38,620 nucleotides of DNA, taken from positions 1 to 38,620 of the forward strand of contig JAJYBH010000017.1 in the NCBI GenBank assembly GCA_021779135.1, written 5' to 3'. The notes under the pieces are model-generated. The model saw nothing but the letters and a program-made list of their open reading frames with translations. It was not told where the DNA came from and ran no database searches. The position numbers and the translations under genes were made by a program. This DNA comes from Deltaproteobacteria bacterium (lineage in GTDB: Bacteria > Desulfobacterota > Desulfuromonadia > Geobacterales > Pseudopelobacteraceae). This document shows, one piece after another, positions 3,153-18,881 of the stretch; the first letter of the stretch is position 1, and every line of letters starts with the position of its first letter.

Positions 3153-3229
3153 CGGGATGTAGCGCAGCCTGGTAGCGCACCTGCTTCGGGAGCAGGGGGT
3201 CGCTAGTTCGAATCTAGTCATCCCGACCA
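3153..3229 (+). tRNA. tRNA-Pro (anticodon CGG)
   Basis: A complete 77-base cloverleaf with an encoded CCA end. The acceptor stem is CGGGATG paired with CATCCCG. The D arm contains AGCCTGGTAGC. The anticodon arm CCTGC/GCAGG closes a 7-base loop TTCGGGA, giving anticodon CGG, which reads CCG proline codons. The T arm contains GTTCGAATC. The 3' 50 bases lie within the 56-bp attachment repeat, so after integration the gene is made of a chromosomal 5' part and an element-derived 3' part, and remains functional in sequence. Confidence 0.97.
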
Positions 3230-3235
3230 TACAAA
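3180..3235 (+). repeat. attL: 56-bp direct repeat (3' tRNA-Pro)
   Basis: These 56 bases run from the tRNA anticodon arm to 6 bases past its CCA end. They recur without mismatch at 13279-13334. The identity stops abruptly on both sides. This is the core attachment repeat left by site-specific integration into a tRNA gene. Confidence 0.95.
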
Positions 3236-3318: not shown

Positions 3319-4206
3319 TTACTTCTTCTCTTTATACCCATGAGCCTTAAGATACTTCCGTACCATATCAGCCAATTCTTCATTCAACTCGCCTGTCCAT
3401 ATAAGCGATTTTTGCTTACATACCTCGAAAAGGCTTTCGAATATGGCCGACTCATTTTCAATCAGCGTGGGATATCGGGGATTGAGTGTGGACGGTCGCC
3501 ATTTTGCTGGTTTTTGTAATTCTTCAAGAACCGTACGCATATGAATGTACGCATTAGTCGCGAAGCTTTTAGACTCTGAATCAGAGGTAAGACCCAGGTT
3601 CTGCTTGGCCTTCAAAAACTCTGTCGTAATACCATCACCATCTACCTCAAGATTGCTGTTCTGTACCAACCGTACAAACCGCATCAGATGCTCAGCATCC
3701 ATTTCTTCCAGGAAACCGATCTGAAGCGGCAGGGTAAGATCAGATCCTTCAATAACATGCTCTTCCAAAGTTTCCAGCGCCTTTGACATGCACCCATCCA
3801 ACTCCGGTTTCTGTAGCAGCAGAAAACTGAATGGCTTGTCTGCCTTCCCCAGAAAAATAACCCGCCCATCATCCCCCTGGTACCAAGCGAACCGGGTAAT
3901 CTGGTTTTCCTCGCAAAAGCCTGCCATGTTGTTGGCCAACTCTTTGGCAAGCGTGGGTAAATGCCGCGGTGCGGGTACCATAGGTTGCCAGACCGCCGCA
4001 TCCAGTGGCGGGCTGCCATACATCAGATAGCCGGACGGCACGTTCAGCGCGGCAGAAAGCTTCGGAACCGCATCATGGGAAGGGGCGTTGTTGCCCTTCT
4101 CCCAGATACTGATCGACCCACGGGGCAGTCCGCTCTTGGTCGAAAGCAGATCCTGTGTAAGGCCATTCAGTATCCTGAGTGTTGTCAGTCGTTCATTTCG
4201 TTCCAT
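3319..4206 (-). CDS. XRE-family helix-turn-helix repressor of the island
   Basis: A 295-residue DNA-binding regulator. Residues about 5-60 form a Cro/CI-type HTH (RLTTLRILNGLTQDLL, then GSISIWEKGNNAPS, then LSAALNVPSGYLM). The remaining 230 residues are an unrecognised C-terminal domain, probably for dimerisation or signal sensing. I see no clear LexA-type peptidase pair. It is divergent from the AlpA-like gene with a 107-base shared control region, the usual layout for a satellite or prophage master repressor controlling alpA and replication. A dyad TAGTGT/ACACTA overlaps its own start codon, suggesting autoregulation. What inducer it answers to is unknown. Confidence 0.85.
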   Translation of the reverse strand: MERNERLTTLRILNGLTQDLLSTKSGLPRGSISIWEKGNNAPSHDAVPKLSAALNVPSGYLMYGSPPLDAAVWQPMVPAPRHLPTLAKELANNMAGFCEENQITRFAWYQGDDGRVIFLGKADKPFSFLLLQKPELDGCMSKALETLEEHVIEGSDLTLPLQIGFLEEMDAEHLMRFVRLVQNSNLEVDGDGITTEFLKAKQNLGLTSDSESKSFATNAYIHMRTVLEELQKPAKWRPSTLNPRYPTLIENESAIFESLFEVCKQKSLIWTGELNEELADMVRKYLKAHGYKEKK

Positions 4207-4313: not shown

Positions 4314-4574
4314 ATGTATTTGGAAGCTGCTGAGCAGGCACTCGAACATATTGCCAATAACAAACCACAGGGATGCATCGTTGATCCCCTGATTGCAGAC
4401 AAGACTTTACGGGAAAAGGTCTTCGGGGTCTCCAACGTGACCTGGTGGCACTGGCGCAAACAGGGGAAACTGCCGAAATCGCTCACCATCGGCCGGCGGC
4501 GTTTCTATCGACGCTCGGATATTGAAGCCTGGTTCGATGAGATGGTCTCGGCAGAGCCTGCTGATGCCCAGTAG
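4314..4574 (+). CDS. AlpA-like / MerR-type winged-helix regulator
   Basis: An 86-residue DNA-binding protein. Residues about 30-76 form the excisionase/AlpA-type helix-turn-helix (LREKVFGVSNVTWWHWRKQG, then KSLTIGRRRFYRRSDIEAWF), the recognition helix and wing of the family. Proteins of this type in P4-like satellites and PICIs activate integrase, act as excision factors, or activate replication genes. GGAGGT lies 6 bases upstream of ATG 4314. It is the first gene of the rightward module, 9 bases ahead of the initiator-like gene, and probably cotranscribed with it. Which of the family roles it plays is not decided by sequence. Confidence 0.85.
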   Translation: MYLEAAEQALEHIANNKPQGCIVDPLIADKTLREKVFGVSNVTWWHWRKQGKLPKSLTIGRRRFYRRSDIEAWFDEMVSAEPADAQ

Positions 4575-4583
4575 TACAGGAGA

Positions 4584-5702
4584 ATGAGTTACCCAATCAA
4601 AAGTCAGGGTGTTTTGGACCTGGCCGGATGGGCCCCCACGGGAGATCTGATCGATCACAGCTGGTTCCGCCATGTCCGTCGCAAGAACAAACCCTACTAT
4701 CAGGCCATACTGCTGCTGGGACGGATCACATACATGTATCGACCGGTGGATGTCCTGGACCCGAGAAGCCAACTGGTAATCGGACGTGCCCAGAAATTCG
4801 AGGCAGACCTGTGGCAGCAGAGCCGAAGATCGCTGGCCGCCTATTTCGGAATGTCCATGAATGATGTGGACGCTGCTCTGGAGGCATTGAAACGTATTGG
4901 AGTGGTCTGGACGGAATTGAGAACCATCGTCGTCAAGGGGCAGCGCATGTCCAACACCATGTATATCGGCCTTAACACTATGATATTACGTGAAATATCG
5001 ACCCCTATGGTACTGCAGACCCATAGCTATACCTCTGCAGAGGGAGAGCTATCCGACTCCAGTACTATAGCTATGGGTCTACAGAGGGATACAAATACAG
5101 AGATTACCCAGAAGATAACCCAGAAAAGCAGAAGCAGGGCTGCTGCCGGGAAATCTCGATGTTCTGCAAAACAGATAATTTCACAGGCCGTCTGGGAAGC
5201 AGTCACAGCCCTTCCCCCAGCCCTTCAGCGGGACGCCTGCCAGATCGCCCATGAGGAGGCAGAGGCCGGTGATGAGGTAATTGTCAGCAACTTTCTGTTG
5301 ATGGCCTCACGGAAGGATCTCACCGGCGGGTTGTTGCGCAGTGCAGTGCGCCAGGATTATGCGGCTGACCAACGGAAACAGGTGATGGACCAGGATGCAA
5401 TCCAGCAGAAAAGTCTCGCCAATAAAAAGGCCAATGAGCACCAGCGTACCTTAGAGGAAGAGGAACAATCACAAGAGGCCCGTGAGTGGTGCGCCAGCGA
5501 AGAAGGTAAACAGTTTCTGCACCTGTTCGAGCCACTGCCGGAATCAATGCTGTCGGAAGAAGACCGGGAATCGCGGGAACGTGTCCAGAGAGACAGACTC
5601 AATCGACAGCGTCAGTTATTGCTGAATGACGGTCTCCTGGACAGCCAACATGGACTCGATACGTGTCCACAAATGTGCACTAATGCTGTCAGCAGCGCGT
5701 AG
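4584..5702 (+). CDS. Replication-initiator-like winged-helix protein with internal iterons
   Basis: A 372-residue protein I assign tentatively as the island's replication initiator. Residues about 65-135 look like a winged helix (QQSRRSLAAYFGMSMNDVD, ALEALKRIGVVW, a beta-hairpin TELRTIVVKGQ). A Ser/Thr-rich linker (about 140-190) follows, then a charged, probably coiled-coil C-terminus (about 255-345). The DNA encoding the linker carries four phased 22-bp repeats. Organisation as DNA-binding domain, linker-with-origin, then C-terminal interaction domain is that of lambda O. AGGAG is only 1-2 bases from ATG 4584, but no other start fits. No helicase or primase motif is visible, so it would load a host helicase. 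It could instead be an unrelated DNA-binding protein. Confidence 0.6.
   Translation: MSYPIKSQGVLDLAGWAPTGDLIDHSWFRHVRRKNKPYYQAILLLGRITYMYRPVDVLDPRSQLVIGRAQKFEADLWQQSRRSLAAYFGMSMNDVDAALEALKRIGVVWTELRTIVVKGQRMSNTMYIGLNTMILREISTPMVLQTHSYTSAEGELSDSSTIAMGLQRDTNTEITQKITQKSRSRAAAGKSRCSAKQIISQAVWEAVTALPPALQRDACQIAHEEAEAGDEVIVSNFLLMASRKDLTGGLLRSAVRQDYAADQRKQVMDQDAIQQKSLANKKANEHQRTLEEEEQSQEAREWCASEEGKQFLHLFEPLPESMLSEEDRESRERVQRDRLNRQRQLLLNDGLLDSQHGLDTCPQMCTNAVSSA
5001..5088. repeat. Four tandem 22-bp iterons inside the initiator-like gene (candidate ori)
   Basis: Units begin at 5001, 5023, 5045 and 5067, each exactly 22 bases. All four have CTAT at unit positions 5-8 and CT-N-CAG at 13-18. Units 2 and 4 match at 18 of 22 positions; units 1 and 3 match unit 4 at 13 of 22. 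Because 22 is not a multiple of 3, the repeat runs through different reading frames and encodes dissimilar residues, so selection is on the DNA. A 19-bp inverted repeat with one mismatch (5013-5031 against 5066-5084) and a perfect CCTCTGCAGAGG palindrome (5032-5043) overlie the array. An A-rich stretch follows (5089-5140), a possible unwinding region. Confidence 0.7.
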
Positions 5703-6289
5703 ATTAACCGGATAAAAGTAAAGCAAATAAGCATGTTGCAGCCATATAGGAAACAAACAAAACAGTTACAACTTTTCAGATAGGAGAGATTTTTCGCAGC
5801 ATCATTGCCCGGTGTACCCAGAGCTGGTGAGCCTTATGGCCCGGTCGGACACCACCCACGGGATTGGCCAACCTAAGCAGAGCCCTTTCATGTCGAGGTA
5901 CACGCACCTCCCCCTCGCATGACCGTACGCAGTCAGAAATCCGAAGACGGCCGGAATACCCCCGGTAACGGCGCCCCTGGAAAGGCGTTTCCGCTCAACG
6001 ATATGTAACTGTTGATCCGGAATCTGAGGAAGGACCGGGATACCCCCGAAGTCCGGCGCCTTGGAAAGGCATTTTCTGGCAGGCACAATCGAGGACCTGT
6101 TTAACGTGATCCACCGGTAGAGTCCCGGTTCACGGCAGACAGCAGACTATTGGCAGGAATCCTTGCCAGGTCCAGATACAAGGGACACTACGAAAAGCAG
6201 GAAGACGGAGCTGCTACCGTCGGCATGGCGATGCCGGAAAAAGAGCATGTCATCTCACCACGCGGGCCGGCAACGGCCAGAGGTAATCA
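5703..6289. other. 587-base spacer with repeats and strong secondary structure, no convincing gene
   Basis: I find no well-supported ORF between the initiator-like gene and the second recombinase. The stretch contains a nested hairpin (CATG and GAGGT pairing with ACCTC and CATG, about 5889-5922), TGGCC/GGCCA arms (5838-5870), two ~57-base imperfect direct repeats (see 5936-6076) and an 18-base near-palindrome TGGCAGGAATCCTTGCCA (6151-6168). A 94-codon leftward reading from GTG 6086 exists but lacks a ribosome site. Candidate roles are a structured RNA, a second replication or transfer site, or a regulatory region. The sequence does not decide among them. Confidence 0.45.
5936..6076. repeat. 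Two ~57-bp imperfect direct repeats, each with a hairpin
   Basis: Copy 1 (5936-5992) and copy 2 (6019-6076) align over their whole length with about three quarters identity and start 83 bases apart. Shared blocks include AATC-GA-GA-GG, CCGG-ATACCCCCG, CGGCGCC and TGGAAAGGC. GGCGCC with the downstream AGGC(G) can form a small hairpin in each. Confidence 0.65.
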
Positions 6290-7255
6290 ATGAAACACAG
6301 ATGGCCAAAATCACTTTATTCCCAGGTCGAGGCGGTTTTTCACTCGGTCCGTTCCATCGGAAAGTCAAAGAGGGATACCGATAAGGGAATCCGTTCATTC
6401 GGATCATGGGAAGTCTACAAGAGTGAGACCCACCGTTTAGCCAAATTCATGCATAAGAACGGGCGAACCAGCATCCTCGATACCCTGTCGGTTTTGGACG
6501 ACATGGCAGAGTACCTTGAAGAGCGACTGGCGCACTACGTCGAGAAGAAACGGTCGCGCCAGACCATGGAGACCATTCTTTCCGCACTGGGAAAGTTCGA
6601 ACACGCCATCAATCACTATATCGATATCCACTCTCTGGATATTCCCAGACTGGAGACAGAAAAACTGCGCATGGAATTCTACGCCCGCAGCCGAAAACTG
6701 CTCCGGAAATCAAGCAAGATCTTCGACAACCGTGCCTACCCCGATCCGATCCGGCTTATCGCCGCCATCAGCGACGGGACGTTTCAACTTCAGGCGTCAC
6801 TGCAATACGAAGGAGGCTTGCGTACCGAAGGTGTCGGCGCACCTAGCAACCGGCGCTTGAAGAATCCCCTGACCACTAACGGGCTGCGTGGTATCGGCAC
6901 TGATCCGGTCACCGCATCCCCTGTAGGTGTTGTCGCCTCGGTGGAGAAAGGCGGTAAGGAAACTGAGCATTACGTCTCCGTCCCGACCTACTGGAGACTG
7001 GAAGAACATATTTCCCGTCACGGAAAGCTGGAGAGCGAGTACTTCGCCTATGTTGAGGCAATCAACACGGCTGCCAAGGTTACCAGCCAATATGCCCCTG
7101 GTCGCGGTAGCCACGGCCTGAAACATAACTTCGCCCAGGAGCGTTATCTGGAATGTATTGCCCACGGCATGAGCCATGAGCAGGCCCTGCAGCAGACTTC
7201 TCTGGAAACCTCCCACTTTCGGCTGCGGGAAACCCTGACCTACACGAGAGGATGA
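6290..7255 (+). CDS. Second tyrosine-recombinase-like protein with a substituted catalytic residue
   Basis: A 321-residue protein with an N-terminal SAM-like/arm region (about 35-120) and a C-terminal tyrosine-recombinase fold. Recognisable sites are R178 in GGLRTEG, a lysine hairpin EKGGKETEHYV (about 219-229), H275 in HGLKHNFA, H309 in ETSHFR and Y318 in LTYTRG. The second catalytic arginine of the HxxR motif is replaced by K278. It resembles the 'Integrase_1' type found in integrative elements more than the P4-type integrase at the other end. AGAGGT lies 7 bases upstream of ATG 6290. Stop TGA and the next ATG are one base apart. It may be a resolvase or dimer-resolution enzyme, a second integrase, or a catalytically weak accessory protein. 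Confidence 0.65.
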   Translation: MKHRWPKSLYSQVEAVFHSVRSIGKSKRDTDKGIRSFGSWEVYKSETHRLAKFMHKNGRTSILDTLSVLDDMAEYLEERLAHYVEKKRSRQTMETILSALGKFEHAINHYIDIHSLDIPRLETEKLRMEFYARSRKLLRKSSKIFDNRAYPDPIRLIAAISDGTFQLQASLQYEGGLRTEGVGAPSNRRLKNPLTTNGLRGIGTDPVTASPVGVVASVEKGGKETEHYVSVPTYWRLEEHISRHGKLESEYFAYVEAINTAAKVTSQYAPGRGSHGLKHNFAQERYLECIAHGMSHEQALQQTSLETSHFRLRETLTYTRG

Positions 7256-7256
7256 A

Positions 7257-7607
7257 ATGACCGAACAACTGAACCTGATAACCGGCCTGACAGAGCATGA
7301 GCGGAAAAAACTCTTTTCCTGGGTGGCGTCGCTGCCTGAGGAGAAGATTATCGAGATCTTCCAGGAGGGAGTGAAGAAGTCGTTCCAACTCAAGGAGGAA
7401 CGTCCAGATCTCCACGGCAGGATCACCAAGTACTGCGCCTTTGTCATGGCTGCCCGAAAAGGTGGCTGGGACACGATCAAGGGCAAAGGGTACCGGGTGG
7501 CAGATCAGGAACAGTACGTCGACTTTTCCCACCTCCGCAAGGCGAGCGCTGCCGGGCTGATTCAAAGAGGTAGGACACCGGTAGTGCGCTTAAAGATCCT
7601 GGCTTAA
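7257..7607 (+). CDS. Small hypothetical protein paired with the second recombinase
   Basis: A 116-residue soluble protein with no family I recognise. Predicted helices dominate ([20 protein letters not shown], then [13 protein letters not shown]), followed by a basic, glycine-containing segment ([16 protein letters not shown]) and a C-terminal [14 protein letters not shown]. Its ATG follows the recombinase stop after one base, so the two are surely cotranscribed and probably work together, for example as a directionality or accessory factor (inference). It ends within a few bases of the point where the convergent SEC-C gene loses homology, which marks a module boundary. Confidence 0.6.
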
Positions 7608-9268: not shown

Positions 9269-9336
9269 TGTCCAGTTTATGTCCAGTTTGCAACTCTCCA
9301 TGCTCTTGTCCAGTTTGTCTACTTTGTGTCCACTTT
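9269..9336. repeat. Four TGTCCAGTTT-type repeats
   Basis: TGTCCAGTTT occurs at 9269-9278, 9280-9289 and 9307-9316, and TGTCCACTTT at 9327-9336, all in the same orientation. They overlap the 3' end of the chimeric ATPase ORF. A further copy on the minus strand lies inside the integrase promoter spacer (13198-13207). They could be binding sites for a regulator, or the repeated end sites of a lost transposon. Neither is shown. Confidence 0.45.
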
Positions 9337-10770
9337 ACCGGCCAGACAATAAAATGTATTCCGTCCGGTAGCACCGAATTTTTTCAGGACGGTTTTACCA
9401 ACCATATCCTCAAGATCTCTGGAAGCGGTTCTGATGGTCACATTTGTCAGTTCACGATACTCCCGATTCGTAATTCTGCCATTCGCCTTAACAAAAGATA
9501 TCCCCTTCACCTGTCGCTCGTTCAGGTTCATTCCGGCCAGTATTTCCGGAGTCAGCCAGTCACGCCAGATTGTTGTAACAAAAAACCCCTCTCGCTGTTC
9601 AAACTGCGGTTCCGGCAGTCCGGCTTCCCGGCAGAGTTCGATCATAGTTTGGGTGCCGGAACCGACGCGTTCAATATAGCGGGCCAGGTAGAGCGACTCG
9701 GCCAGAAGCGGGTTAAATGGCACTGACGGGTGATCATGCCGGAGGCTGTCCATGGTAAGAGTGCCAGGCAACAAACCAGGATTCCAGATTTCGAGCCTGT
9801 CAGCAAACAGTCGAACCTCAACTGAGGCATTGCTGTGATAGTCCCGGTGGGCAATGGCATTGACGATGGCTTCGCCCACGGCATCGGGAGGGAGTTCATA
9901 GGTCGCAGGCGCAGTAATGCTGACATCCCTGACGCCGACAGCGCGGTCAATCCGATCGAGAACAAAATCGCGGGCAAGGTTTGCCTGCTCGAAAAGATCA
10001 CCACCATAGACCTGCATCGATACAAATGGGCGTCGATATTCCGTGCCCCGACAATGCATGCACTTGGTTTCAGCAGTCCGGTGGAATTTCTGTGGGTTGC
10101 TGCCGAAGAGCATGATCGCTGCATTGGTCGGCTTGTGCTCATGAACGAGGTTAAGGTGGGTCAGCAGCGCCTGGGTGCTGGTGTTTGATTTCAACGGAAA
10201 TCCGCGTTCACGGCGGGCGGTATCCAGGAACCACTCAACCCGCTTGCGGGATATGTCTTTCAGGGTTGCCGGCTCACAGGGAGATGTATCGAAGGGAGGG
10301 ACCCGCAGGGCACCACAGTTGTCGAGGTAGTCCACAAGGCTTGCATAGACCTCGGCAGTCAAAGCACTGGAATCTTCGATCCTGCGGCGGATCAACTCAT
10401 TGCTAGCCTTGCTGATAAGTTGCCGCATCTTGGGGTGGCACTGTTTGTCATCAGAACCCCAGACATACTCGGCAGAATCTGCTGAGGGTGTAATTACGTC
10501 GCCGAAACCGATATCCACTTGCAGATGAATGCGAGCGCCGGCAAGGTCGGCATTGAGTTTGAGTCTCGTACCGCCATATTCCATCTGGTCCCTGATTTCC
10601 TCAGCCTGGACACTCGCAGGATCAAACGTGATCCCGTCATCTGCCACTTCTGTTTGGCAGATTGTACGAAATACAGTGATCAATGCCCCAATCTCGCTTT
10701 CTCCATAACCGAGCAGGTCAACATCCCGAGTCGAACGGTAACCGCTTCTTCTCCTTAGCTTCCTTTTCAT
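9319..10770 (-). CDS. Chimeric ORF: AbiEii-type nucleotidyltransferase fragment fused to GHKL-ATPase / winged-helix protein
   Basis: A 483-residue reading made of two unrelated parts. Residues about 10-100 (YRSTRDVDLLGYG, DGITFDPASV, LQVDIGFGDVITP) match the core of AbiEii/AbiGii-type nucleotidyltransferases, but the preceding Gly-Gly nucleotide-binding motif is missing. Residues about 103-483 match the C-terminal part of COG2865-type regulators: a HATPase_c_4-like domain with N-box EAIVNAIAHRDY (E300, N304), WNPG (329-332), ERVGSGTQTM (367-376), and a C-terminal winged helix (about 415-475). The usual N-terminal AlbA_2 domain is missing. ATG 10770 lies inside the 3' end of parB in another frame. 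It is either an in-frame recombination relic or a new fusion. Confidence 0.6.
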   Translation of the reverse strand: MKRKLRRRSGYRSTRDVDLLGYGESEIGALITVFRTICQTEVADDGITFDPASVQAEEIRDQMEYGGTRLKLNADLAGARIHLQVDIGFGDVITPSADSAEYVWGSDDKQCHPKMRQLISKASNELIRRRIEDSSALTAEVYASLVDYLDNCGALRVPPFDTSPCEPATLKDISRKRVEWFLDTARRERGFPLKSNTSTQALLTHLNLVHEHKPTNAAIMLFGSNPQKFHRTAETKCMHCRGTEYRRPFVSMQVYGGDLFEQANLARDFVLDRIDRAVGVRDVSITAPATYELPPDAVGEAIVNAIAHRDYHSNASVEVRLFADRLEIWNPGLLPGTLTMDSLRHDHPSVPFNPLLAESLYLARYIERVGSGTQTMIELCREAGLPEPQFEQREGFFVTTIWRDWLTPEILAGMNLNERQVKGISFVKANGRITNREYRELTNVTIRTASRDLEDMVGKTVLKKFGATGRNTFYCLAGKVDTK

Positions 10771-11455
10771 AGGCCGCAATCAAATCCTCTGCGGAAACTT
10801 TGGCATTGTCACGTTGAGGAGTTGAAAGTCCTTTGCCGTAATGTTTACGCCGGGAAATGATTTTTTGCGCCACAACAAGCTTTTTCCCGGTCAATGCTCC
10901 CGATTCATACGCTTCTGTCAAGGCACTCTGTACGGCAGTGTCATCTTCCGAAGCTATGTTCAGCGCCTGATATAACGGGATTCGTCCCTTTTCTACTGCG
11001 TTGACCAGGTATTCTTCTCCCTGCTCAAGCAGGCGGATGATGCCTCGAATATAGTCTTTGCCAAGATTGGTCTTGGCAGCAATGGCATCGTCCGCGTACC
11101 CTTGGCCTTTTAGATACTTGATGCTTTGCAGGAGTTCCAGGGCACTGCTGTTGCGCCGGGCGATATTCTCCACCAGACTCATAATATGCGCATCTTCTTC
11201 ACTTACTTCTCGAACGACACAGGGGATTTCCGTTTCTCCAGCAGAAATATATGCCTCAAGCCTTCCCTGTCCGCAAACCAGATCATATTTCTTGCCGCTT
11301 TTAGCATCATTCCTGGGAGATACCGTTATGGGCCTTTTCAAGCCGACGCTTCGAATGTTTTGCCGTATTTCCTCGGCAATAATTTGATTGCGTACCCGTG
11401 GATTCAAGATGTGAATATCTTCAATGGGAATAAGCGCTATTGACCCATGCTCCAT
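10718..11455 (-). CDS. ParB/RepB-like partition protein, 3'-truncated
   Basis: A 245-residue ParB-family protein. The N-terminal nuclease-like/CTPase domain is clear: IPIEDIHILNPRVR, CGQGRLEAY (about 61-69) and VENIARRN (about 95-102). A helical DNA-binding part follows (AKTNLGKDYIRGIIRLLEQG, about 128-147). RepB-type relatives go on past the KEAKEKK segment for 50 or more residues. Here the frame shifts into AbiEii-derived DNA at about residue 238 and stops after FDSGC, so the C-terminus is lost. The start has only a weak GGTGG site. No ParA partner is present in the element. The protein may still bind DNA but is unlikely to work as a full partition system. Confidence 0.7.
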   Translation of the reverse strand: MEHGSIALIPIEDIHILNPRVRNQIIAEEIRQNIRSVGLKRPITVSPRNDAKSGKKYDLVCGQGRLEAYISAGETEIPCVVREVSEEDAHIMSLVENIARRNSSALELLQSIKYLKGQGYADDAIAAKTNLGKDYIRGIIRLLEQGEEYLVNAVEKGRIPLYQALNIASEDDTAVQSALTEAYESGALTGKKLVVAQKIISRRKHYGKGLSTPQRDNAKVSAEDLIAAYEKEAKEKKRLPFDSGC

Positions 11456-11693: not shown

Positions 11694-11840
11694 AATGATT
11701 CCCAGCAGCGAAGATATTGCCACCACCCGCCGGTTGTAGACCTGCGCTTCAAGGTTGTTAGGTCCGGCCTGAAGGTACTGGGTTATCGGGTGTTCGATGA
11801 GATGGGTGATCACAAAAGAATAATCATTTTCCCTGGACAT
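11670..11840 (-). CDS. Possible small ORF overlapping the integrase 3' end
   Basis: A 56-residue reading (MSRENDYSFVITHLIEHPIT onward, ending ISTEFEQQ) starts at ATG 11840, 17 bases before the integrase stop in another frame. An AAGG lies about 10 bases upstream. Translational coupling to the integrase would be possible. It has no recognised family, and it overlaps the opposite-strand remnant by 24 bases. It could well be chance. Confidence 0.25.
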   Translation of the reverse strand: MSRENDYSFVITHLIEHPITQYLQAGPNNLEAQVYNRRVVAISSLLGIISTEFEQQ

Positions 11841-13122
11841 CTTCCGGACCTTCTGCAGTTTCTGCACTATCGGATTTGATATTTACAAGCCCCTCCAGGT
11901 GGGCTGACCACTTGGTAAGCCATTCCTGCTTTTCCTTGTCATATTTGTTTCGGTTGTAGATACCGATGACACCTTTCTTGGCATGGTTCAGGATTGCATC
12001 GATGATTTCATCCGGGCAGCCCAGCTCAGATAATTTGGTGGCCGCTGTACGCCGTAGATCATGCGGTGTCCAGCGGGGCAACCCGAAATATTCCGCCATA
12101 GCCTCGGTCTTTTTTCCGTCAGCCACAACCCGACCCCCTGCCCGTTCATCGCAAACCATGTGTGACAACGCTTTTCTATGCAAAGGCGGAAATACCGCTT
12201 TGTGATCCACCGGATCAATGACCGCGGGTCCTGGAAAGACATAGTCACTGAAGCCGGGGTTCTTGCCAATGATACGCAAAGCAAGCGGTGTGAGAAACAC
12301 CCGATGACTCTCTTGACGATGAATTCGCGTTTTTATCCGTTCCGGCGGGATCGTCCACCATTTCTTTTCGATCTCGCTCCAGGCCAAACCTGCAACCTCT
12401 CCAGGACGCTGAGCGGTGATCAGGATCAGTAGCAATGCCCTGCGGGTTTCTGCCGATCCGGGCGGAGTCGCGGAATGGATAGTATCCCAGACGGATTTGA
12501 TCTCTGCATCGGATAAGGTTCGGGAAGTGCTCACCGGTTTTATGGAAGGTACGGCAGCTGGCAGGCGTGTGAAGGGGTTGATTTCAACCAATTCACGATC
12601 CAGGGCGTAGTTGAACATAGCGCGGGCAATTTTCATGACGCCGCGAGCCTGGCCGGGAGCGGTCGTTGCAATCGGCTCGATCAGGCTTATAGCGTCCTTT
12701 CGCCGGATTTCTTGGGCATTACGTTCCTTCCAGATCGTAATGATATGCTTGTCCAGGGTGCGAACCGTTTCACGGGCTGTCGATTTTGCCATGTGTTGTT
12801 CCACAAACACTTTGTAATCATCTACCAGTTTCTGAATGGTCAAAGCAGCTTCAGGTGCTGTTGCAACAGATTGCTCAAGGGGGCTCATACCCTTGCCGAC
12901 CAGGATGGCTGCCTCTCGAAACTTTTCCCGGGCATCGGCAAGCGTCGTCGCAGGATATTGTCCGAGGTTCATGCGGTGACGCTTACCGTTCAGGGTATAA
13001 ATGTACTGGAATGTTTTGACACCAGAGGGAAGGACGCGTAACGTAAACCCGTGACCTTCACGGATGCAGTACTCTTTCTCGGGTAACTTGATGGACTGGA
13101 GAAAGCGGTCGGTAAATTTCAT
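11824..13122 (-). CDS. int: P4-type tyrosine integrase (DUF4102 + catalytic domain)
   Basis: A 432-residue site-specific recombinase that would catalyse integration and excision at tRNA-Pro. The N-terminal arm-binding DUF4102-type domain (about 1-85; FTLRVLPSGVKTFQY, LGQYPATTLADAREK) is followed by a core-binding domain (about 95-185) and a catalytic domain with R239 (TAQRPGEVAGL), the HDLRRTAATKL box (H354, R357), H380 (LNHAKKG) and nucleophile Y389 (GIYNRN). ATG 13122 is chosen because AGAGG lies 5 bases upstream; a start at 13143 would lack a site. The paired TGGAACCTC repeats cover this RBS and start, so the integrase may repress its own translation or transcription. It reads inward from attR. 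Confidence 0.95.
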   Translation of the reverse strand: MKFTDRFLQSIKLPEKEYCIREGHGFTLRVLPSGVKTFQYIYTLNGKRHRMNLGQYPATTLADAREKFREAAILVGKGMSPLEQSVATAPEAALTIQKLVDDYKVFVEQHMAKSTARETVRTLDKHIITIWKERNAQEIRRKDAISLIEPIATTAPGQARGVMKIARAMFNYALDRELVEINPFTRLPAAVPSIKPVSTSRTLSDAEIKSVWDTIHSATPPGSAETRRALLLILITAQRPGEVAGLAWSEIEKKWWTIPPERIKTRIHRQESHRVFLTPLALRIIGKNPGFSDYVFPGPAVIDPVDHKAVFPPLHRKALSHMVCDERAGGRVVADGKKTEAMAEYFGLPRWTPHDLRRTAATKLSELGCPDEIIDAILNHAKKGVIGIYNRNKYDKEKQEWLTKWSAHLEGLVNIKSDSAETAEGPEDVQGK

Positions 13123-13141
13123 GGAACCTCTGTGGAACCTC
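13122..13141. repeat. Right pair of TGGAACCTC repeats over the integrase start
   Basis: TGGAACCTC at 13122-13130 and 13133-13141 (period 11) matches the left-end pair at 3278-3299. On the minus strand this is the integrase RBS region, and the first base of its start codon is included. These are candidate integrase arm sites doubling as an operator. Confidence 0.6.
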
Positions 13142-13186
13142 ACATGCTTCCGAAATCAAATTAATGCTTCGAAAAACCCTGAAACA

Positions 13187-13278: not shown

Positions 13279-13334
13279 CCTGCTTCGGGAGCAGGGGGTC
13301 GCTAGTTCGAATCTAGTCATCCCGACCATACAAA
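13279..13334 (+). repeat. attR: 56-bp direct repeat with tRNA-Pro 3' half
   Basis: An exact copy of 3180-3235, containing the last 50 bases of tRNA-Pro plus 6 downstream bases. The 5' half of the tRNA is absent here, so this copy is not a functional tRNA gene. Confidence 0.95.
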
Positions 13335-14067: not shown

Positions 14068-15930
14068 TCAGGGGGAGGGTTGTTCTGGTGGATGCCCATT
14101 TTTCCGTTCATTCTCCATTTCGGCCAGGGACACGGCCGCGGAGATCAGCGAAAGGTGAGAGAGACCCTGGGGGAAATTGCCGAGCATTTCACCCGTGCTG
14201 ACATCGAACTCCTCGGCAAAAAGGCCAAGGTCGTTCCCGGTGCGGATTGCGCTACGGAAGACCTCGTGAGCCTCAACAAGCCGCCCCTGGCGGGCCAGGC
14301 ACTCCACCAGCCAGAAGGAACAGGCTACGAAGGCCCCCTCCCTCCCCGCGAGTCCGTCGGCGCCGACAGGGTAGCGACGCAAGATCCCCCCCTCGGTCAG
14401 TTTTTCCATGACAGCATCCGTCGTCCGCAGCATCCGTTCGTCCCCATAGGCCACGAAACCGGTGGTCGGCAGGAGCAGGAGCGAGGCGTCAAGATCGCTG
14501 CTGCCGAACGACTGCACGAAAATTCCCCGCCCATCGTCGTAGCCTTCCTGCTCCACGACGCGCCGGATCTCGTCCCTTTCTCGCACCCAATCCGACGTCG
14601 GGGCCTCACGTCCCAGTTCAGTGGCGAGAGCGGCACCCCGGTCCAGGGCGAACCAGCACATGACCTTGGAAAGCACGAAGTGCCGCGGTGCACCCCGCAT
14701 CTCCCAGATGCCGCAATCCGGTTTGCGCCAGACCCGGCAGGCCGCATTCACAATTTCGACCAGAAATTCCCAGTAATCGTTGTCCGGCGAATGCCCCCCC
14801 TGATGCCAGCGCCAGGCCAGGTCGACAAGCTCTCCGTACATATCCAGCTGAAGCTGACCGGCGGCGGCGTTCCCCACCCGCACCGGCCGCGCTCCATGGT
14901 ATCCGGCCATGCCCTTGATTTCGTATTCATGCAGACGGCGCTCACCCCCGACACCGAACAGGACCTGCAGTTCGTCGGCATTGCCGGCGGCGCTCCGTTC
15001 AATGAAACGGCGAAAGCCGTCGGACTCATTGCGGTATCCCAACTCCGCCAGGGAACGGATGGTGAAGACCGAGTCGCGGATCCAGGTAAATCGGTAGTCC
15101 CAGTTGCGTCCGCCGCCGGGCGCCTCCGGGAGAGAGGTGGTGGCAGCCGCGGCGATGGCGCCGGTGGGCGCGTTGGAAAGTCCCTTGAGGACGATGGCCG
15201 AGCGGCCGACCAGGTCGGCATACGGCACGGGGAATGCTCCCTGCGAGCTCCACTTCTCCCACCAGGAAATCGTCTCTGCCAGCCGCCCGTCGAGTTCGGC
15301 CGTATCCGGCACGGCGACGTTGCCGTGATCGATGAGTTCGGGACGACGGAAGAGAATGGAGAGGTGCCGCCGTTCACCGGCGGAGATCGTGATGGTCGCC
15401 GCAAGGTCGTGACGACCCCGCTGCTCCAGCCGAAAATCTCCCGAAATGATCAGGCCGCTGCTCCCCCCGAACGCCAGGAAGTGGTCCTCCTGCCTTCTGA
15501 CCCAGGGCAGGATGGCGCCGTAATCGAAGCGGGGAACGATCTCGACGTCGACCGGCACGCTCCCCCGGACGCCATCCACGCAACGGAGGATCTGCTGGTA
15601 AGGCTCCCTTCTTCCCCCCCGGCGCATCGGAAAGCAGTCCATGAGCCGCACCTCGCCGCCGCCGGTCGAATACGTCGTCTCCAGGACGAGCGTCCCGGGA
15701 AGGTAGCGACGCTTGACGTCCGTCACCCCCCGGGGGAAAATCCGGCAGTATCCCCCCTTTTCCCGGTCGAGAATCCGGCCGAAGATGCTCCCCGAGTCGA
15801 TTCGCGGCATACAGCACCAGTCGACGGAGCCTCCTTTCGATACAAGGGCCATGGAATGACAGTCGGCAATAAATCCGTAATCTCCGATTGAAGGAGAAGC
15901 ATGGTTGTTACAGGGCTGTCCGCTAGGCAT
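14068..15930 (-). CDS. Glycoside hydrolase family 15 (glucoamylase/trehalase-type)
   Basis: A 620-residue GH15 enzyme that would cleave glucose from alpha-glucan ends or hydrolyse trehalose with inversion. An N-terminal beta-sandwich (about 1-225; SIGDYGFIADCHSMALV, GSVDWCCMPRIDS) is followed by the (alpha/alpha)6 barrel. Hallmarks are GGRNWDYRFTWIRDS (273-287), the catalytic acid E410 in GIWEMRG and the catalytic base E543 in CSFWLVECL. No signal peptide, so it is cytosolic. The length fits the bacterial family of about 600 residues. It lies outside the trehalose operon and faces away from it, but its likely substrates link it to that pathway. Glucoamylase and trehalase activities cannot be told apart by eye. 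Confidence 0.9.
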   Translation of the reverse strand: MPSGQPCNNHASPSIGDYGFIADCHSMALVSKGGSVDWCCMPRIDSGSIFGRILDREKGGYCRIFPRGVTDVKRRYLPGTLVLETTYSTGGGEVRLMDCFPMRRGGRREPYQQILRCVDGVRGSVPVDVEIVPRFDYGAILPWVRRQEDHFLAFGGSSGLIISGDFRLEQRGRHDLAATITISAGERRHLSILFRRPELIDHGNVAVPDTAELDGRLAETISWWEKWSSQGAFPVPYADLVGRSAIVLKGLSNAPTGAIAAAATTSLPEAPGGGRNWDYRFTWIRDSVFTIRSLAELGYRNESDGFRRFIERSAAGNADELQVLFGVGGERRLHEYEIKGMAGYHGARPVRVGNAAAGQLQLDMYGELVDLAWRWHQGGHSPDNDYWEFLVEIVNAACRVWRKPDCGIWEMRGAPRHFVLSKVMCWFALDRGAALATELGREAPTSDWVRERDEIRRVVEQEGYDDGRGIFVQSFGSSDLDASLLLLPTTGFVAYGDERMLRTTDAVMEKLTEGGILRRYPVGADGLAGREGAFVACSFWLVECLARQGRLVEAHEVFRSAIRTGNDLGLFAEEFDVSTGEMLGNFPQGLSHLSLISAAVSLAEMENERKNGHPPEQPSP

Positions 15931-16081
15931 GATATGTCCGTTTCGCTAAGGGTATCCATTCCCGGCAACGCCGGCTTTTGTGGAGCTACTCGATTCGGAA
16001 ACGACCGGCATGGATAAAGTATCGCCGATAACGGGCGGATGTCAAACCGCCAAACGCGTCATTTGGCGCCATCCGAGTGAT

Positions 16082-16109
16082 TTGCCTTCCATCCCTTTGC
16101 CTGTATACT
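16082..16109 (+). promoter_or_regulatory. Promoter of the CDF transporter gene
   Basis: TTGCCT (16082-16087) and TATACT (16104-16109) are separated by 16 bases. Transcription would start near 16116, leaving a leader of about 105 bases before ATG 16221. Confidence 0.55.
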
Positions 16110-16116
16110 TTCTTCA

Positions 16117-16215
16117 GGGGCTTAGCCGGGGGTGTGATGGGCCTGGTCTCCGCGGAGGACCATGATAACGGAAACAGCTAAGCGGAAAGAGCACCATCCT
16201 TTGCAGGCTGGGGTT
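16117..16215 (+). promoter_or_regulatory. Structured leader of the CDF gene
   Basis: GCTTAGC (16120-16126) pairs perfectly with GCTAAGC (16177-16183), closing a domain. Inside is a stable hairpin TGGTC/GACCA (16144-16148, 16158-16162) extended by TCC/GGA. A purine-rich GGAAAGAG follows the closing stem. The layout is that of a cis-acting RNA, but it does not match the manganese (yybP-ykoY) or NiCo riboswitch patterns that I know. Confidence 0.4.
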
Positions 16216-16220
16216 GAATA

Positions 16221-17135
16221 ATGGGGAGCCACTCTCGCACCGTCATCTATGCGGCTCTTACGGCAAACCTGCTCATTGCCGCAACCAAATTCGGCGCGGC
16301 CCTGGTGACCGGGAGTTCGGCGATCCTTGCCGAGGGGATACACTCCCTGGTCGATACATCAAATGAGCTGCTGCTCCTCTATGGACGGCGACGGGCAAAG
16401 CTGCCGCCCGACGACCACTTCCCCTTCGGCCATGGCAAGGAAATCTACTTCTGGAGCTTCGTGGTAGCGATCCTCGTCTTCTCCCTCGGGTCGGGGCTTT
16501 CCATCTACGAAGGGATCGACCAGCTCATTAATCCACACCCGACCCGACATACCTACGTCAATTACGTGATTCTCGGACTGGCGGCACTATTCGAGGGGAG
16601 CAGCTGGAATATTGCCCGGCGGGAACTTGCCAGAACAAAGGGGAGGCGAGGGTACCTGGAAACCATTCGCCGGGCCAAGGACCCATCGGTGTTCGTGGTT
16701 TTCCTGGAGGATTCGGCGGCCCTCCTCGGGCTGGGGGTCGCCTTCACCGGCATCCTGCTCAGCCAACTCAGCGGCAAGCATTATTTCGACGCACTGGCCT
16801 CGATCGTCATCGGTCTCATTCTCGGGGTGACCGCCAGCATTCTGGCTGCCGAGACAAAGGGCCTGCTTATCGGTGAGAGCGCCAACCGCGAGGTGGTGCA
16901 GGGGATCAGGGAAATTGCGGCCTCTTCGTCCGGGGTCGAACATGTGAATGAAATTCTCACCATGCACATGGGGCCCGAGTTCATCCTGGTGAATCTGAGC
17001 GTCGAGTTTGACGATGCAGCCTCGTCAGACGACATCGAGACCATGATCGCCCTGCTGGATCGCAGGATCAAACAGGCCTATCCCAACGTCAAGCGCATAT
17101 TCGTGGAAGCCGAGGCCTGGAGGACGCGCGAATAG
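16221..17135 (+). CDS. Cation diffusion facilitator (CDF) family transporter
   Basis: A 304-residue inner-membrane exporter of divalent metal by proton exchange. About six membrane helices span 8-205. TM2 carries the metal site H41-x3-D45 with N48 (EGIHSLVDTSNEL). The conserved loop HFPFGHGKEIYFWSF lies at 66-80. TM5 has E163/D164 in FLEDSAALLG instead of the usual DxxxD/HxxxD pair, as in the ZnT9-like branch. The cytosolic C-terminal domain (about 210-304) ends with KRIFVEAE. The substrate (Zn, Fe, Co, Mn or other) cannot be read from sequence. A structured leader precedes it. It stands alone, 60 bases from a convergent small gene. Confidence 0.9.
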   Translation: MGSHSRTVIYAALTANLLIAATKFGAALVTGSSAILAEGIHSLVDTSNELLLLYGRRRAKLPPDDHFPFGHGKEIYFWSFVVAILVFSLGSGLSIYEGIDQLINPHPTRHTYVNYVILGLAALFEGSSWNIARRELARTKGRRGYLETIRRAKDPSVFVVFLEDSAALLGLGVAFTGILLSQLSGKHYFDALASIVIGLILGVTASILAAETKGLLIGESANREVVQGIREIAASSSGVEHVNEILTMHMGPEFILVNLSVEFDDAASSDDIETMIALLDRRIKQAYPNVKRIFVEAEAWRTRE

Positions 17136-17195
17136 CGCCGGATATTGGGATATGTTCTTAACCGATGACTCTCTGGACCGGAGGCATCAAAAGTC

Positions 17196-17378
17196 TTACT
17201 CGTGCGGCAATGCCTTGAGAGTGGAATTCAACTTGGCAACCGATTTTTCAAGCTTGCTCAGGTTCGCCTGGAGTTCCTCTATATCGCTTTCCACATTGAG
17301 TTCACTGGCAAATTCCTGGATGGCGCCGATCTGCAACCCGATGACATCATTGATGCGAGTGGTTTCAAGGTGTGTCAT
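17196..17378 (-). CDS. Small coiled-coil protein
   Basis: A 60-residue acidic protein with a heptad-like C-terminal half (DIEELQANLSKLEKSVAKL, about 32-50). AAGGAGAG lies 8 bases before ATG 17378, which supports it as a real gene. No family is recognised. It lies between the convergent CDF gene and, 228 bases upstream, the end of the leftward ClC gene. Confidence 0.6.
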   Translation of the reverse strand: MTHLETTRINDVIGLQIGAIQEFASELNVESDIEELQANLSKLEKSVAKLNSTLKALPHE

Positions 17379-17606
17379 GATCTTGCTCTCCTTTCCGCCT
17401 GGCGTGCGGATCTACTACTTAAATTATGACGAGAAACGGCCGGTCGTAAATATTTCCACTGTACACATGTTTATTATAATTCTTTTTGCACTGTTTTGTC
17501 TGTCCGAGAACCACGGAGGAATTTTCGCAGGAATTAGAGGATGGATATTGCACGGGGGCGGCGGTCGCAGAGACTATATCACTGGGCTGAATCCCATCGG
17601 GTGTTC

Positions 17607-18881
17607 TTATTCCTTCCGATTTTTATTCGCAAGGAAACGGTACAGGGGGATCGGCATGAATTGTTTGCCGATGCCGCGAGCGAGGAAGGCAGTGATCATA
17701 AACGGGATAATCAGGATGTGCTCGTCAGTCATCTCCATAACGATGATAACTGCCGTAAGCGGCGCCTGGATGACCCCGGAAAAAAAACCGACCATGCCAA
17801 GCAGCCCGCAGACTTTGAAATTCATGAAAAAGAAGATCTTTGCGACACAGAACCCTATACCTGCGCCGATTGCCAGACAGGGTGAGAAAATACCCCCTGC
17901 CATACCCGACAAGTATGACAGCACCGTGGTACAGAATTTTCCGATACTGAACAAGAACGGAGCTTGATCAAGCGATGAGCTTTCCAGTACCTTTCGGGTA
18001 ATCTCATATCCGGAGCCAGACGTTGCGCTGTCACTGTAGAGCCCGATCAACGCGCATACGCTTCCGCAAAGAAACGCGCGTAACCAGCTCTGTTCCGGTA
18101 GCCGGATCAATTCCGGGTACGCCAGCAGGCGTGCGAAAACACCTCCGAAAATTCCGCCAAAGATTCCAAGGATAACTGTCTCGGGTATTATGGCGGCGAT
18201 TGAGCTTGAGACCACCGGGTGACCGAAATACAGGTAATTACCGGCGAACGCCATCGACACAATACCGGAAAGAATCACCGCAAGCATGATCATTTCCCGG
18301 TATTGGCCAAGCAGGCCTTCGGTGATTTCCTCGATAGCAAAGGTGATGCCGGCGAGTGGAGCGTTGAATGCCGCAGCGACACCCGCCGCAGCTCCGGCGG
18401 TGAGAAAGGATTGGAAATCTACCTTGGGGAGGATTGGTCGCGTTACCCGTCCGGCCCAGGTAAATATGGATGCGGCGATCTGTACTGTTGGCCCTTCCCG
18501 TCCGATTGACGCGCCGCCAAGTATGCCGAGGACACTTGACACCACTTTCACAGCTGCCGTGCGCAGCGACACCAAGGGGTTGTTCCAGGGCGGTTCACGA
18601 TTCTCCAGGATGTGGCTGTGCGAGTGCTCTATCACTTCGAGGACTTGCGGGATGCCGCTGCCCTTGGCGGCGGGGCCGTACTTCTCCACGACCAGCGTTG
18701 CCGCGACAAACAGCGCCGGAGTGCTGATCGCAACCAGGTAAGGGTGCCCGTGTGCGAGGAAATAGTAGAATTTTTGCGTGACCTCAATGAGCCGCGCATA
18801 CAGTACGGCCGCCACTCCCACAAGTGCCGCGGCAGCCCAGACGGTAATTTGAAGGTACGTACGCTGACGAAAACGTATCAT
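17607..18881 (-). CDS. ClC-family chloride/proton antiporter
   Basis: A 424-residue integral membrane protein of the ClC fold. Anion-site motifs are GSGIP (74-78), GREGP with gating glutamate E129 (127-131) and GGIFSPCLAIGAGIG in the second half. The inner proton glutamate is present in FAIEEIT (E184/E185), so it is more likely a 2Cl-/H+ exchanger than a channel. There is no C-terminal CBS pair. AGGA precedes ATG 18881. In bacteria such exchangers support acid resistance and volume control, which suits a locus rich in osmoprotectant genes, although no operon link is seen. Confidence 0.93.
   Translation of the reverse strand: MIRFRQRTYLQITVWAAAALVGVAAVLYARLIEVTQKFYYFLAHGHPYLVAISTPALFVAATLVVEKYGPAAKGSGIPQVLEVIEHSHSHILENREPPWNNPLVSLRTAAVKVVSSVLGILGGASIGREGPTVQIAASIFTWAGRVTRPILPKVDFQSFLTAGAAAGVAAAFNAPLAGITFAIEEITEGLLGQYREMIMLAVILSGIVSMAFAGNYLYFGHPVVSSSIAAIIPETVILGIFGGIFGGVFARLLAYPELIRLPEQSWLRAFLCGSVCALIGLYSDSATSGSGYEITRKVLESSSLDQAPFLFSIGKFCTTVLSYLSGMAGGIFSPCLAIGAGIGFCVAKIFFFMNFKVCGLLGMVGFFSGVIQAPLTAVIIVMEMTDEHILIIPFMITAFLARGIGKQFMPIPLYRFLANKNRKE

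Follow-up and report, generated by a model that had tools for sequence, protein, structure and literature searches.

Gene content of the integrated island

The window analysed here, i.e., the whole of contig C13 (38,620 bp), contains a 10.1-kb element bracketed by exact 56-bp direct repeats on the forward strand (attL, 3180-3235, and attR, 13279-13334). The repeat represents the 3' part of a tRNA-Pro(CGG) gene (3153-3229), which was the sole match in an Rfam search of the window. In relatives, the tRNA and its terminator are uninterrupted, corresponding to sites without the insertion. The GC content of the element is 51.6%, compared to 60.1% in the flanking DNA, and an integrase gene (Arm-DNA-bind_3 and Phage_integrase; 11824-13143, reverse strand, from family searches) adjoins attR. 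The integrase and the direct att repeats at the tRNA confirm that the element is an integrated genomic island, which is where the original prediction had placed the repeat array described below.

Family searches also identified an HTH_3 (cI-like) repressor gene (3319-4206, reverse strand) and an HTH_17 (AlpA- or excisionase-like) gene (4314-4574, forward strand). The latter is directly upstream of rep (4584-5702, forward strand), whose 372-residue product was recognized as a replication initiator from profile matches, its relatives and a structure model. Downstream of rep lies a forward-strand segment (5727-7606) composed of a non-coding leader, an ORF (6290-7255) that is tyrosine-recombinase-like by its own sequence and matches nothing in Pfam, PHROG or NCBIfam, and one more ORF (7257-7607). 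The cargo of the island includes SEC-C, DUF1186, AbiEii/RecG-C-like and ParB-like genes. In the ORF at 9319-10779, an AbiEii nucleotidyltransferase-like N-terminal part is fused to a RecG-C-like HATPase domain; this ORF, perhaps defence cargo, overlaps the ParB-like gene (10718-11455). Among the ten main island ORFs, a comparison with curated families revealed no PICI-type packaging or capsid-interference genes, and neither a helicase nor a loader gene is present in the island or follows rep.

AlphaFold, using an alignment of 44 rows, predicts three parts in Rep. A winged helix is modelled confidently (pLDDT >90 over roughly residues 21-140) and is followed by a disordered stretch (approximately residues 144-196) and then by a helical C-terminal part. 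A Foldseek search of the model against the PDB gave generic winged-helix matches only, none of them at E<=0.001. At the sequence level, 43 of the 44 aligned members match the phrog_270 family ("replication initiation protein") at E<=0.001; the window protein alone matches the family weakly (E=0.0047), and its matches to phage proteins of the phrog_270 type reach E values down to 1e-21. No Pfam family was found for Rep at E<=1, including Phage_rep_O (PF04492), to which one of the 44 relatives gave a match at E=0.0059, below the curated cut-off. A search of phage records with the C-terminal 173 residues gave no match, nor was any known helicase-binding motif identified in the C-terminus.

The iteron array and the adjoining A-rich element

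Four phased 22-bp iterons occupy positions 5001-5022, 5023-5044, 5045-5066 and 5067-5088 of the forward strand, and every unit carries CTAT in positions 5-8 and CT-N-CAG in positions 13-18. The original prediction had described these same units, and an unbiased scan of rep (periods 9-45) returned them, at period 22 with four units, as the best array of the gene. In a second scan (periods 10-34), the array has a z value of 9.5; its score was reached by none of 3,000 dinucleotide shuffles of rep (maximum 6.5) and by none of 3,000 synonymous-codon permutations (maximum 8.2). As had been argued from the fact that 22 is not divisible by 3, the array is thus very unlikely to be a consequence of repeated protein sequence. 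The exact motif CTATNNNNCTNCAG occurs in 15 copies in the 3.43-Mb genome, 5 of which (counting both strands) are located within the 88-bp array. Each iteron forms an imperfect palindrome with CTGCAG at its centre, in alternation with ATAGCTAT (array dyad score 6.0 of 9, compared to a mean of 4.5 for column-permuted units, with 1 of 100 permutations reaching the score), and it is this symmetry that gives rise to the inverted repeats over the array, with 36-nt arms that are 78-81% complementary. The inverted repeat and the palindrome (CCTCTGCAGAGG, 5032-5043) previously noted over the array are real. Integrase arm sites were considered for the array and rejected, given its distance of 1.8 kb from attL.

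The A-rich stretch that had been said to follow the array is present at 5089-5140. Its GC content is 42%, versus 52% in the array and 53% in the gene, and this drop, which is modest, is conserved. The stretch contains a conserved 17-mer, ACAAATACAGAGATTAC (5091-5107, forward strand), directly after the array, which is presumed to be the origin-opening sequence and is continued by two 12-bp repeats, GATTACCCAGAA and GATAACCCAGAA (5102-5125, forward strand). The array and the element are located in the codons of the predicted disordered linker, such that the putative origin would be written where the protein tolerates the sequence.

A close copy of rep, with 91% amino-acid identity, was found in genome G080, the sole full-length relative in genome searches of the order, class and phylum; proteins of two other genomes, G062 and G066 (L003 and L004), have only a weak C-terminal stretch in common with Rep. 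The two rep genes differ in 86 of 1,119 nucleotides (7.7% of sites), and the 164 nucleotides at 4944-5107 (forward strand), which cover the array and ACAAATACAGAGATTAC, are identical. No longer stretch of identity exists in the 4.5 kb common to the two elements, and the chance that 164 sites at one fixed position all stay unchanged is about 2e-6 (hand calculation at the gene-wide rate, with sites treated as independent). None of the 30 codons in the array is changed, versus 73 of 373 in the whole gene. The changed codons comprise 39 synonymous and 34 non-synonymous cases, and the dN/dS ratio, roughly 0.26 by hand, shows purifying selection on rep at the sequence level. In the stretches read, the G080 copy is accompanied by neither a related integrase nor a second att repeat.

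In most relatives, ACAAATACAGAGATTAC or a near match lies directly after the iterons, often extended as 12-bp repeats. Among the 114 exact IMG/VR matches listed, 103 lie in ORFs of the same initiator family and 102 are preceded by 130 bp in which 22 or 23 is the best period, although these counts are non-independent, many of the phages being near-identical. The element occurs nearly always in one reading frame, coding for TNTEITTE, a peptide which is kept in most relatives, and selection on the protein was therefore weighed. Codon usage in the element is strongly biased relative to that of the same genes (Glu GAG 0.89 versus 0.40, Ile ATT 0.83 versus 0.38 and Thr ACA 0.64 versus 0.36), in a comparison that is partly circular since the sites were found with the 17-mer itself. 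In two relatives (L072 and L041), ACAAATACAGAGATTAC is found in another frame, and in Herpetosiphon (L017) the period is 11 bp. On this basis, a function of ACAAATACAGAGATTAC at the DNA level is considered likely but not settled. CAGAGATTACCCAGAA is exact both in rep and in the initiator genes of L318 and L322, which are otherwise unrelated to it and whose products have no detectable similarity to Rep in either half. A linker stretch coding for ITENTT (ATAACAGAGAATAC...), similar to that of the window, also occurs with an unrelated Rep N-terminus in two other elements of the order (L015, 3114-4103, and L016, 10003-10995), each of which contains an integrase, a ParA-like gene and Rep.

In the Bacillus subtilis oriC, a short phased single-strand element is located beside the double-strand initiator sites (PMC10201434), an arrangement resembling that of the window. 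Nevertheless, the element was rejected both as a DnaA-trio and as a DnaD recognition element, as it contains no tandem TAG/TAA trios on either strand and no TnnT on the top strand; the bottom strand is T-rich with many TnnT, which is not specific. A search of mainly open-access literature gave no published description of the 17-mer in an origin context. We tentatively suggest, at somewhat less than even odds, that ACAAATACAGAGATTAC and its 12-bp-phased continuation represent an undescribed origin-opening or helicase-loading signal, common to in-gene origins across bacterial phyla with unrelated iterons and C-terminal domains. If so, in-gene origins would consist of a variable, swappable recognition cassette and a constant opening module. 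The constant element beside variable iterons is a testable candidate for an origin-opening step independent of initiator specificity.

Iteron period in relatives and apparent cassette exchange in sister islands

Relatives were collected by protein similarity to the winged-helix domain only, such that their DNA was not preselected. A viral scan with the single window protein yielded no relatives, and an alignment query of viral sequences yielded 201. The comparison set contained 59 relatives, all pairs of which were below 70% identity, and the 210 nt following the domain were scanned in each. The best period was 22 in 27 and 23 in 8 of the 59 (35 in all), at the same place in the gene; among 118 control stretches taken from these genes, 3 had a best period of 22 or 23. 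In the remaining 24 relatives the best period was other than 22-23, and 12-bp repeats were top-scoring in 13 of these. The array exceeds synonymous shuffles at p<=0.05 in 40 of the 59 relatives, and dyad symmetry is common among them (mean 5.2 of 9, compared to 4.4 for column-permuted units). The sequence of the iterons and the encoded linker both diverge while the period stays, in line with the persistence of the 22-bp period that had been proposed as a check; the prediction thus also withstood the refuting condition set for it, homologues devoid of such a period. Judged from these sequences, an origin and its reader evolving together would be expected to leave such a pattern. It would follow that a conjecture drawn from a single sequence extends to a rule for the initiator family, in which the sequence by itself often suffices to locate the origin, whether in a phage, a plasmid or a chromosomal island. 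A literature search, weighted to open-access sources and with thin coverage of older phage work, revealed no description of 22-23 bp in-gene arrays in this family.

Highly similar counterparts of the segment downstream of rep (5727-7606) are present in about 20 of 141 genomes of the order, with 63-89% protein identity. The possibility that it is an inserted transposon was dropped, since it follows the initiator gene in the sister islands with a readable upstream region and thus has the appearance of an island backbone. Its last ORF is cut at position 7606 in the window compared to the sister islands. The non-coding leader carries two 40-nt repeats, at 5951 and 6035, and its 101 nt just before the recombinase-like ORF (6175-6275) are identical to those of G080, representing the third longest identical run of the 4.5 kb in common.

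The N-termini of the sister initiators are of different types, i.e., Phage_rep_org_N (L319 and L320), HTH_36/phrog_270 (L325) and DnaD-like (L318), and C-termini are common to different N-types. Over their C-terminal 170 residues, L318 and L324 have 84% identity, with no N-terminal match between them; for L319 and L324, identity is 98% in the N-terminal and 65% in the C-terminal part. The C-terminus of Rep itself has no relation to those of the sister islands detectable by BLAST. Most of the N-terminus types carry their own repeats at the same place: L318 and L322 contain 23-bp iterons at the domain boundary, which none of 400 codon permutations reached, and L320 and L321 contain 12-bp TGTCCGCGGACA-type repeats (reached by 5 and 0 of 400 permutations, respectively). 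Judged by eye, L319 and L324 exhibit GTCACGTGAC palindromes, with no significant array, and L325 exhibits GTGTCA/TGACAC pairs. On the sequence evidence, the origin repeats and the N-terminal domain that reads them appear to swap together as a cassette, and since the repeats seem to travel with the DNA-binding domain, this would argue independently that the domain targets them. The same backbone with different initiator-plus-repeat cassettes offers a natural experiment on the change of origin specificity, a subject studied previously in lambdoid phages, outside of which these islands lie. No description of cassette exchange in such islands was found in the literature (a search likewise weighted to open-access papers, in which older phage work is thinly covered). 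In L319, two cargo ORFs (15063-16553 and 16550-18028) look by sequence like methylase subunits of a type I restriction-modification system, which suggests islands of a defence type.

A putative in-gene origin and its alternatives

We consider, with a probability of about 0.85, that positions 5001-5125 represent the replication origin of the island, of the lambda O type, embedded in the gene of its own initiator. From the sequence we infer binding of Rep, opening, helicase recruitment and replication from the array, along the following lines. Upon relief of the repressor, the island would excise at the tRNA-Pro and Rep would be made. Winged-helix dimers of Rep would bind each of the palindromic 22-bp iterons, which are about two helical turns apart, forming an O-some-like complex, and strain from this complex would open the adjacent A-rich ACAAATACAGAGATTAC element. 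The C-terminal part of Rep, tethered through the disordered linker, itself encoded by the origin, may then bring in DnaB helicase, presumably that of the host given the lack of a loader or helicase gene after rep.

Alternatively, the array may be a regulatory site at which Rep or the island repressor binds, curbing rep expression or copy number, with initiation elsewhere, e.g., in the 550 nt of non-coding DNA that follow rep. Plasmid iterons often double in copy-number control, and the downstream stretch (5727-6289) is well conserved. This stretch, however, also follows initiators whose N-termini are quite different and is thus not their specific target, and the array is not at the rep promoter but well inside the gene, near its middle and next to a conserved A-rich element, which is the arrangement of the lambda and SPP1 origins, such that we regard a regulatory site as quite improbable. 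It is even harder to credit that the repetition reflects only the protein, i.e., a low-complexity linker with repeated peptides and no function in the DNA. The conservation of TNTEITTE as a peptide and the 12-bp period of its coding stretch, a multiple of 3, would be consistent with such an explanation, but neither 22 nor 23 is divisible by 3, synonymous permutations fail to reproduce the array, its codons are unchanged in G080 and codon bias in the element is strong.

The array may also be a former origin, in a decaying island which no longer excises or replicates. The truncated backbone ORF, the lack of a loader gene and the G080 copy, with neither a related integrase nor a second att repeat in the stretches read, point in this direction. 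Such a remnant is nevertheless unlikely, as the att repeats in the window are identical, the integrase, repressor, AlpA-like and rep genes are all open, rep is evidently under purifying selection and conservation is highest in the putative origin block.

In-gene origins are an established kind, known from lambda, SPP1 and, by annotation, Tuc2009. In lambda, iterons and an AT-rich stretch lie in the middle of the initiator gene O, which codes for a winged-helix-type N-terminus and a separate C-terminus (PMC7466680). Lambda (J02459) thus resembles the window in this arrangement and in domain layout; in the scan used for the window, its own iterons score best at 23-24 bp. Its iterons, however, are 18 bp long and unevenly spaced (20, 24 and 23), unlike the phased 22-bp units of the island, the O protein has no detectable similarity to Rep, and O is followed by the P gene, whereas the island has no loader gene. 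The lambda-O-style label originally given to the putative origin holds for the architecture, with phased iterons in mid-gene and an A-rich stretch beside them, but not for the family, given the lack of a Phage_rep_O match and of a loader gene after rep.

In phage SPP1, gene 38 contains oriL, composed of direct repeats and an AT-rich unwinding element to which its own product, gp38, binds (PMC6316719), a likeness to the window that is drawn from the published description; the phage, unlike the island, encodes a loader (gp39) and a helicase (gp40). The Rep genes of the Lactococcus phages Tuc2009 and TP901-1, the former annotated as containing the origin, carry repeats in the linker as in rep, although these are 15-bp repeats and the N-terminal domains differ; the C-terminus of TP901-1 Rep is related to that of some members of the family studied here. 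The phrog_270 proteins of Acinetobacter phages, the E. coli phage-plasmid pF17EC0245-1, a Vagococcus plasmid and others contain winged-helix domains that are 22-36% identical to that of Rep, and most of their genes carry an in-gene 22-23 bp array together with the 17-mer element. Their C-termini and iteron sequences differ from those of the window, and the genes mostly adjoin one for a DnaC-like loader or DnaB.

More generally, the relatives are initiators of phages and plasmids encoded beside DnaC-like loaders, DnaB or lambda-P. Among ten whose downstream neighbours were scanned, five are followed by an IstB/DnaC-like ATPase, one by DnaB and one by lambda-P. In Marinomonas (L049, 8891-9613), the gene after the initiator-family member is a lambda-P homologue (Pfam Phage_lambda_P, E=4e-16), forming an O-P-like pair with a non-O initiator.
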